Shown in pieces: positions 54,175 through 60,593 of a stretch of DNA of 64,000 nucleotides. Under the pieces are notes generated by a model. That model worked only from the letters and a program-made list of their open reading frames with translations, searched no databases and had not been told where the DNA came from. Each line of letters opens with the position of its first letter. The first letter of the stretch is position 1. The stretch lies in assembly GCA_030434875.1 (NCBI GenBank), contig JAUISW010000001.1, positions 507,501 through 571,500 of the forward strand, written 5' to 3'. Source of the DNA: Lachnospiraceae bacterium C1.1. GTDB taxonomy: Bacteria; Bacillota; Clostridia; Lachnospirales; Lachnospiraceae. The position numbers were made by a program, and so were the translations under genes.

Positions 54175-54238
54175 TTTTTCTTAGAGAAGTATAAGTTATT
54201 CGTGTTTTATTTTTTATACAAGAAAAATTATAATAAAA
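54175..54238 (+). promoter_or_regulatory. Operator-promoter block of gudD1 (shared with gudD2)
   Basis: TTTTTCTTAGAGAAGT (54175-54190) recurs exactly at 59152-59167. Inside it TTCT-TAG-AGAA is a LysR-type interrupted palindrome. The similarity continues to a -10-like TATAAT (54229-54234): 49 of 63 positions match the block before the second copy. Confidence 0.7.
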
Positions 54239-58893: not shown

Positions 58894-58918
58894 TCCTTGA
58901 ATCCGGATAGTTGATGAA

Positions 58919-58962
58919 CGAGCCCCTCTCGCCGCATATCGTGCGGTGGGAAGGGCTTTTTT
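58919..58962 (+). terminator. Terminator of the gudD-tctBAC operon
   Basis: AGCCCCTCTCGCCGCA and TGCGGTGGGAAGGGCT pair with TATCG as loop, followed by a T run. Confidence 0.9.
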
Positions 58963-58995
58963 AATTTTTTTATCTTCTGCTAAAGATAACAATTA

Positions 58996-59142
58996 GTTAC
59001 TGTTCACAGGCAAACTGCGCACTCCGCTGCGCAGTTATGCCACAATAACTTTGACTGAACACTGGGTTTTGCCCATTGCCGTAGGCAATTTTAAATGGCA
59101 AAACCCGTTACTGGAGCACGCTGAAAGCGTGTGAACAGTAAC
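58996..59142. mobile_element. MITE-like element with terminal inverted repeats and 8-bp flanking duplication
   Basis: GTTACTGTTCACA (58996-59008) and TGTGAACAGTAAC (59130-59142) are perfect 13-bp terminal inverted repeats. AACAATTA stands immediately outside both ends (58988-58995 and 59143-59150), as a target-site duplication should. Inside are three hairpins: AACTGCGCA/TGCGCAGTT (59013-59036), GGGTTTTGCC/GGCAAAACCC (59064-59106) with a nested ATTGCC/GGCAAT stem, and CACGCT/AGCGTG (59117-59131). There is no coding capacity, so movement would need a transposase from elsewhere. Confidence 0.85.
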
Positions 59143-59151
59143 AACAATTAA

Positions 59152-59214
59152 TTTTTCTTAGAGAAGTCTTACTTTTAAGTGTTTTAAATTTGGTACAGGA
59201 AGAATTATACTAAG
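59152..59214 (+). promoter_or_regulatory. Operator-promoter block of gudD2 (shared with gudD1)
   Basis: TTTTTCTTAGAGAAGT (59152-59167) with the TTCT-TAG-AGAA palindrome at 59155-59165, continuing to a -10-like TATACT (59206-59211). The palindrome lies 100 bp before the chosen start of gudD2, as against 102 bp for gudD1. It begins 2 bp after the MITE flanking duplication. Confidence 0.7.
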
Positions 59215-59264
59215 TTCATCAAGAGGAAATGAATACGAAAATTTATGAAGGAGCAGTTAAAAAT

Positions 59265-60593
59265 ATGACACCAACAATTACAAAAATGGAAGTCTTTCCG
59301 GTAGCCGGTAAAGACTGCATGGAACTTAATTTAAGCGGAGCACATGCACCGTTCTTCACAAGAAATATCGTTATCATGCATGACAGCGAAGGACGTGTCG
59401 GCTGCGGTGAAGTTCCCGGAGGACAGAAGATAACTTCTGCACTTGAGGAAGTTAAATCAATAGTTGAAGGAAGCAGTGTTGCAGAATACAAAAACACAAT
59501 GCTCAAGGTTAAGGCACATCTTGACTCAAAAGGTGAAGAGGACGTAAGAGGAAATCAGACATTCGATTTAAGAACCGGAGTGCATGTTCTCACAGCTATC
59601 GAAACACCTTTACTTGACCTTCTCGGTCAGTTCTTAAATGTTCCGGTAGCTGCACTTTTGGGCGATGGTCAGCAGCGCGATAAAGTAAGGGTTCTGGGAT
59701 ATCTCTTCTTTGTAGGAGACAGACATAAGACAGATCTTCCTTATGATGAAGAGCCGGACAGTGATTGCGAGTGGTATCGCATCAGACATGAAGAAGCACT
59801 TGATGCAGAGCATATAGTTGCATTTGCGCGTGCTACAAAAGAAAAATACGGATTCCAGGATTTCAAGCTTAAGGGCGGAGTACTTCCGGGAAATGAAGAA
59901 ATGGAAGTTATCAAGGCCATGAAAAAGGCATTTCCCGATTCCAGAATGGACCTTGATCCTAACGGAGGCTGGACGCTTGAGCAGGCATGTGAATATGTAA
60001 AAGATATGCATGGAATCCTTACATATTGCGAAGATCCCTGTGGAGCTGAAGGTGTTTATTCAGGCCGTGAGATCATGAGTGAGTTCCGCAGAAGAACAGG
60101 TTTCCCTACAGCAACAAATATGATCGCAACAGACTGGAGAGAAGTGGGACATTCACTTGAGTCTCAGGCAGTTGACATCATCCTTGCAGATCCTCATTTT
60201 TGGACAATGGAAGGCTCTGTAAGAGTTGCCCAGATGTGTCATGAATTTGGATATACATGGGGAAGTCATTCAAACAATCACTTTGATATTTCACTTGCAA
60301 TGATGACACATGTAGGAGCTGCAGTTCCCGGATTTTATAATGCACTTGATACACACTGGATCTGGCAGGAAGGTGTTGAAAGGCTTACAAAAGAGCCCCT
60401 TCAGATTAAGGATGGATGCATAGAAGTACCGAAAAAGCCCGGACTTGGTATTGAACCTGACATGGATCAGATCAGAAAAGCAAATGAAATATATGTAAAT
60501 AACTGTCTCGGAGCAAGAGATGATGCAAAAGTCATGCAGTATCTTATCCCCGGATGGAAATTTGATTCTAAGAGACCTTGTCTCGTAAGATAA
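59265..60593 (+). CDS. Glucarate dehydratase, second copy
   Basis: A 442-residue paralogue of the enzyme at 54290 with the same catalytic set: [44 protein letters not shown] and ALDTHWIWQ. Nothing suggests loss of activity, unlike the GudX-type relatives in enterobacteria. ATG 59265 is preferred over 59229: AAGGAG lies 11 nt upstream, the N-terminus then aligns with the first copy ([15 protein letters not shown]), and the operator distance matches. ATG 59229 has its AGAGGA only 1-2 nt away. It is followed by garR, 39 nt later. The two copies may prefer different diacids. Confidence 0.94.

Follow-up and report, generated by a model that had tools for sequence, protein, structure and literature searches.

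ISBst12-group elements of the IS66 family, among them ISDge4 and an element annotated as ISGka4, have GTAAC-type ends and 8-bp target duplications, and carry a transposase gene. According to the available text of PMC12898284, ISDge4 has one ORF and an 8-bp repeat, and its ends read GTGACTACTCAGCA and GTAACTGCTCAGCA. Four IS66-annotated elements on plasmids of Geobacillus, Anoxybacillus, Planococcus, and Leptolyngbya have the ends GTAACTATTCAGCC (two elements), GTAACTACTTAGGT, and GTAACTACTCAGG, and a script found exact 8-bp duplications in all four records. The IS66 transposase on the Leptolyngbya plasmid consists of two adjacent frames. The element in the window, as the whole 64-kb stretch of analysed DNA is called here, has the same type of ends and the same length of duplication, but it lacks a transposase gene, and inside its ends there is no likeness to any IS66-like element that was read.

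The locus contains a MITE, a non-coding DNA transposon whose insertion upstream of the second glucarate-dehydratase-like gene duplicated 8 bp of the target. The full reading, to which a probability of about 80% is assigned, is that of a MITE with ISBst12-type ends that is mobilised in trans, has conserved hairpins, and provides preferred landing sites for an IS4-family element. The window copy is an ordinary, well-supported MITE copy, and three features make the family notable: it is an orphan, its fold is conserved, and another IS uses it as a landing site. A full-text literature search on Lachnospiraceae MITEs, ISBst12/IS66 MITEs, and GTTACTGTTCACA, with subscription papers mostly outside its scope, returned no account of this abundant repeat.

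The window copy and its relatives

The MITE spans 147 bp of the plus strand (58996-59142), as established by direct reading and by comparison of copies. It is enclosed by two copies of AACAATTA, at 58988-58995 and 59143-59150 (no strand assigned), which are identical at 8/8 positions. The 13-bp terminal repeats, GTTACTGTTCACA on the left (58996-59008, plus strand) and TGTGAACAGTAAC on the right (59130-59142, minus strand), match at 13/13 positions. The preliminary description of a 147-bp MITE-like insertion with intact ends and the same 8 bp on both flanks is accurate. Folding and covariation place three stem-loops on the plus strand: I at 59009-59041, II at 59064-59106, and III at 59107-59142, the last of which joins the right terminal repeat to an internal copy, GTTACTG (59107-59113). 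The nested stem that the preliminary description attributed to one of the three is located in the middle one (59075-59089, plus strand) and has the apex C(GTA)G. The element had also been described as devoid of coding capacity, which agrees with the list of ORFs of at least 80 aa, none of which overlaps it.

Within the 64-kb window, ends like GTTACTGTTCACA with up to two mismatches occur at two places, both belonging to the element itself, and shuffled sequences reach a mean of 1.26, so that the window count alone equals chance. The decisive confirmation of the insertion is the genome-wide count: GTTACTGTTCAC, the end as it reads in the window copy, has 79+78 occurrences in the 4.23-Mb genome (three contigs), compared with 2+0 for a reversed control.

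The names tctC and glucarate dehydratase come from the preliminary description; the latter genes are called glucarate-dehydratase-like here, as a putative assignment. A terminator-like hairpin at 58927-58951 (plus strand), past the upstream gene and ahead of the MITE, was found by a consensus scan that performs near chance (1 site versus 0.6 expected). The conserved block in front of the second glucarate-dehydratase-like gene (59152-59214, plus strand) starts 1 bp after the right duplication, which ends at 59150, and aligns to 54175-54237, the block in front of the first such gene. Judging from this alignment, the insertion leaves the downstream block intact. A promoter-like site at 59183-59211 comes from a consensus scan at chance level. 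The preliminary description suggested that the insertion may have altered the downstream promoter or insulated it from tctC; an effect on either neighbour is not a necessary consequence.

In a DNA search of the genome, 30 places, including the window's own, aligned over 146 bases or more with 94-100% identity; one of them (L025) is IS-interrupted, and L026 and L027 represent one copy. At least 62 distinct elements were resolved in fetched stretches of the genome, which do not constitute a census; the set leaves out the spurious end pairings L023 (177 bp) and L024 (214 bp) from an initial 64. The 4.09-Mb contig G000:C1 has about 13.8 kb in common between its two ends, at an offset of 4,078,726, with 7,000/7,000 compared bases identical. 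The contig is therefore regarded as a circle with an untrimmed overlap, and copies at both of its ends count as one. L089 was dropped as a duplicate of L081 because of the overlapping contig ends.

The lengths of the 62 elements are 147 bp (28 elements), 146 bp (11), 251 bp (9), 201 bp (8), and 197 bp (2), with single elements of 196, 248, 252, and 253 bp. Two sequence types, A (that of the window) and D (146 bp), have common ends and a common layout. Whole elements of either type can carry a 50-bp module in the stem I loop, and a 54-bp module occurs in the loop of nested stem II in A elements and in one IS-interrupted D element. Folded with the stem flanks, the 50-bp module is strong (z -5.0) and the 54-bp module weak (z -1.7). 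Either gain or loss of the modules is possible. MITE relatives from other species (L128 1386-1582 and L097 1501-1687) contain unrelated extra hairpin sequence at the apex of stem II, where the 54-bp module is placed here.

Exact 8-bp duplications flank 49/62 elements, six more have 7/8 identical bases, and 7/62 have none in the 8-bp register. The 55 duplications are 75% AT and differ in sequence from copy to copy; the 49 exact ones are at different sites, so that further copies with different 8-bp flanks do exist. None of the 62 elements is positioned wholly inside a mechanically called ORF, and four overlap one partly. We infer that the MITE has been active recently.

The perfect 13-mer is present in 16/61 genomes, namely this one and 15/36 of its genus, with 0/24 in other families. 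A covariance model built from 13 elements matches 19/392 genomes of the order (E<=1e-4), this one included, which is probably an undercount owing to strict filters. All 19 belong to the family of the window and represent eight genera, so that the homologues predicted in related Lachnospiraceae do exist; carriers include Butyrivibrio sp. NC3005 (L176) and Schaedlerella arabinosiphila (L128). Among 28 loci that were read, 18 have GTTAC- or GTAAC-type ends and at least 7/8 bases duplicated, nine are without clear duplication, and L263 combines other ends with an 8/8 duplication. The element in L263 (1500-1635) has the three-hairpin layout, ACATA-type ends ACATACATTT / ACATAAATTA, and the perfect 8-bp duplication TCAAGAAA; it may have arisen by an exchange of terminal repeats. 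A search of 24 same-genus genomes for an empty site gave matches to the element itself only, and searches for the MITE in plasmids and phages were fruitless.

Genome G385, with 207 end-motif matches, also contains short remnants. Six are 30 bp long (five with 8/8 flanks, one with 7/8), a form that corresponds to the terminal hairpin of the MITE, and fewer remnants of 27, 40, 50, and 61 bp retain their duplications. The possibility that these 27-61-bp sequences are very small transposons was considered and set aside; for the 30-bp copies, a better explanation would be a deletion in a resident MITE, running from one of its two direct CAGTAAC copies to the other.

Ends and candidate transposases

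The end variants of the MITE family, GTAACTGTTCAG, can be compared with the ISBst12-type ends GTAACTATTCAGCC and GTAACTGCTCAGCA. Because the ends and the 8-bp duplication match those of the ISBst12 group, the MITE would most likely be mobilised in trans by a single-ORF IS66-family transposase of this group; we infer the identity of the mobiliser from sequence comparison. The seven elements without a duplication in the 8-bp register speak against this assignment. GTAAC-type ends and the 8-bp duplication are both present, whereas a search of this genome (G000) with PF03050 found no single-ORF IS66 transposase enclosed by such ends. The element is therefore classified as a MITE with ISBst12-type ends and not as an ISBst12 element.

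The preliminary description had proposed a transposase gene with the same ends. Such genes are found behind ends of this type in relatives, and PF03050 detects none in this genome. In Schaedlerella (L127 and L128), a gene for an IS66-like protein of 587 aa is positioned between GTTACTATTCACAGT ends, in an element of about 2458 bp when an inner IS4 copy is discounted. The flank GAAGGAAG adjoins the left end of this element in L128 and the right end in L127, a distribution that looks as it would after recombination between two copies. A Blautia MAG (L134) encodes a 524-aa homologue with 52% identity behind GTTACTATTCACAGC, with one end only in the locus. G418 (L368), which carries the MITE as well, has an IS66-like frame of 512 aa behind GTTACTGTTCACACCC that runs off the contig. 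The Pfam IS66 scores of L368 and L128 (43.1 and 41.6 bits) are above the cut-off of 23.1, and their NCBIfam IS66 scores (101.7 and 150.8 bits) are below the cut-off of 180. None of the loci read contains a complete autonomous copy in which the two ends and the two duplications stand together.

The single PF03050 match in this genome is a classical IS66 with other ends, and the MITE looks like an orphan here. PF03050 has no match in 11/20 other genomes with the element or the end motif, G385 with its many end motifs being one of the 11. Among 58 stretches from G385, G365, and G331, no element longer than 300 bp has MITE ends and a duplication, and no longer element of autonomous type with MITE ends occurs in the fetched stretches of this genome or in one of G033. 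Long end pairings in this genome are IS-interrupted MITEs, in addition to L064 (1882 bp) and L080 (817 bp), which are without duplication. A search of viral contigs for two IS66-like proteins was fruitless.

Several resident transposons were considered as mobilisers and rejected. The classical IS66 has the ends GTAAACGGTAAACC and the duplication ATATATCT. The DDE_Tnp_1 elements in L230 and L231 have the ends CCATATGCACTAACTTAA, and those in L232-L235 show no pair with MITE-type ends. The Transposase_mut elements in L241 and L245 have the common ends GGTAGTGTCAAAT, L243 gave no alignment in the same orientation, and G014 has no Transposase_mut match. A transposon of about 1.85 kb with GGTAGTGTCAAAT-like ends is repeated in L241 and L245 of G000 and in L377 and L379 of G415.

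Families such as ISL3, IS1595, and IS6 also make 8-bp duplications. A third transposase, outside both ISBst12 and IS4, could move the MITE, in keeping with the missing partner in this genome and the 11/20 genomes without detectable PF03050. However, the ends together with the duplication agree with ISBst12-group elements, relatives have IS66-like genes behind such ends, and the other elements that were checked (DDE_Tnp_1 and Transposase_mut) either have ends of a different kind or show no pair that could be recognised. A third transposase is thus considered quite unlikely, and mobilisation by an ISBst12-group transposase is preferred.

An IS4-family element at the MITE ends

In the stretches read from this genome, the long objects with MITE ends and an outer duplication are MITEs interrupted by an IS4-family element of 1736 bp, which has its own ends nCAATGTCAGTAAGTTAA and an 8-bp duplication. 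Its transposase scores 161.9 bits with NF033592 (cut-off 115) and 77.3 bits with PF01609 (cut-off 23). As far as the available parts of PMC2266710 go, the ends fit the subgroup consensus by eye, and the 8-bp duplication differs from the 10-13 bp given for the IS4 subgroup in Table 1 of that paper. The genome contains nine matches, eight of them distinct. In five of the eight copies, a GTTAC-type motif belonging to a MITE end lies at a distance of 8 bp; four of the five have duplications, for example TTCACACC and CGTGTGAA, and one (L086) has none.

Relatives of the IS4-family element are encoded at 57 loci in named genomes. From 65 IS4-type loci, seven without a clean tip were removed, and the remaining 58 were scored. 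At 35/58 loci the IS adjoins a site that agrees with GTTACTGTTCA in at least 9 of 11 positions, compared with a background of 0.00032 such sites per position in these sequences; the remaining 23 have no site of this type, and one genome can contribute several of the loci. The IS4-family element, which is unrelated to the MITE, inserts preferentially next to MITE ends.

The IS and the MITE have the 8-bp duplication in common, and identical IS copies suggest recent activity, from which it might be argued that the resident IS4-family element itself moves the MITE. Six of the 58 scored IS copies lie between two MITE-type ends; three of these, with an outer 7-8-bp duplication, would fit such a role, and the three without it do not. 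The three copies with the outer duplication would be explained if the IS had inserted into both MITE ends and recombination had followed. Moreover, the IS has different ends and a different target, which none of the 55 duplicated MITE sites resembles (0/55). Its relatives occur in 3/20 genomes with the element and in 1/20 without a model match, and it is absent at E<=1e-40 from G385, G415, G365, G014, and G033. Because element-rich genomes are without it, the IS4-family element is probably not the mobiliser, and this alternative to an ISBst12-group transposase is judged highly improbable.

The terminal base outside CAATG of the IS4-family element varies between copies and between ends (L081-L089, L120-L176), and such copies still make an 8-bp duplication. 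In Schaedlerella, the flanking octamers CGTGTGAA and CCGGTAAA are exchanged between two IS copies (L129 and L132), an arrangement that appears as it would after recombination between IS copies in MITE ends. IS4-like ends are joined to a MITE end in G018 (L118). A long TGTC-repeat tract (L063 695-848; approximately 1807694-1807847 of G000:C1), separated by about 150 bp from the end of an element with an IS in it, opens a chance frame of TDRQ repeats.

Conserved hairpins and comparison with known systems

The window MITE folds as RNA with -64 kcal/mol, compared with a mean of -38.1 for shuffled sequences (z -6.9), and as DNA with z -7.1; in both cases it is better than 200/200 shuffles. In an unfitted alignment of 13 rows, both-side changes occur in 12/41 pairs, versus 1-5 after a shift of the pairing by 1-3 columns; the share of paired cells is 79.3%, versus 74.9% in shuffles. 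Further pair types number 17 versus 17.9 in shuffles, the one of five measures that is not above shuffles, and RNAalifold on the 13-row MAFFT alignment missed most stems. In 55 distinct model-fitted rows, 88.7% of cells pair (65.6% shuffled, at most 45.9% slid), double changes occur in 38/40 pairs, and the covariation score is 0.488 (0.131 shuffled, at most 0.091 slid); this alignment leans towards the structure, and its same-genome rows are not independent. Compensatory change in the stems of the MITE relatives is strong, and the layout of three hairpins is conserved in the family. The hairpins appear to be kept by selection; selection on the fold and repair between the stem arms are both possible sources of the paired changes. 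The motif C(GNA)G is present in 49/55 rows in the middle region that was searched. DNA loops of the C(GNA)G type are unusually stable.

The double changes in 38 of the 40 stem pairs could also mean that the element is more than a passenger and functions mainly as a structured RNA or regulatory module. Its placement points in the same direction: 22 of the 62 elements are in divergent gaps and four in convergent gaps (two-sided binomial p 0.0005, uncorrected for gap length), with 36 between tandem genes. However, the orientation relative to the tandem genes is the same in 22 cases and opposite in 14 (p 0.24), and Rfam has no match at E<=1 over 58900-59300. Cells are G-T in 45 and A-C in 29 instances (p 0.08), so that the sequence does not tell which strand is folded, nor whether it is folded as RNA at all. 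Repair between stem arms can yield paired changes as well, and the measure that failed to exceed shuffles in the 13-row alignment also weighs against this function. A mainly regulatory or RNA role is considered unlikely, and the mobile MITE remains the preferred interpretation.

A broader reading, possible although doubtful, is that the three-hairpin interior is the selected unit and that a second IS lineage has adapted to the ends, the two forming a two-level system of parasites. If so, the fold, as DNA or RNA, would be needed for IS66-type amplification or for tolerance beside promoters. Compensatory change would have preserved it from genus to genus during the replacement of the sequence and, in one case (L263), perhaps even of the terminal repeats, and the first level of parasites would have lost its own transposase in many hosts.

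The conserved fold and the homing of a second IS to the ends are points of interest beyond the ordinary copy in the window. An abundant repeat is tied to the little-studied ISBst12/IS66 transposons, the large number of copies whose stems still pair after replacement of their sequence provides a test case for the function of MITE hairpins, and the preference of one transposon for the ends of another has been mapped.

BOX, RUP, and ERIC repeats resemble the MITE in that they are short, non-coding, intergenic, and strongly folding. These properties are also found in Type II bacterial MITEs, which by the definition in the available text of PMC10969869 are similar to an autonomous element at the ends only, as is the case here. 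Unlike in all of these repeats, the three-hairpin layout is kept across genera with replaced stem sequence, and the loops can contain modules of 50 and 54 bp. The landing of an IS4-family element in the ends of another transposon has a parallel in IS231A, which reportedly inserts into the ends of Tn4430. Some insertion specificity is attributed to IS231A in the available part of PMC2266710. In contrast to IS231A and Tn4430, the target described here is the end of an IS66-type MITE, and the preference is observed in many genomes.
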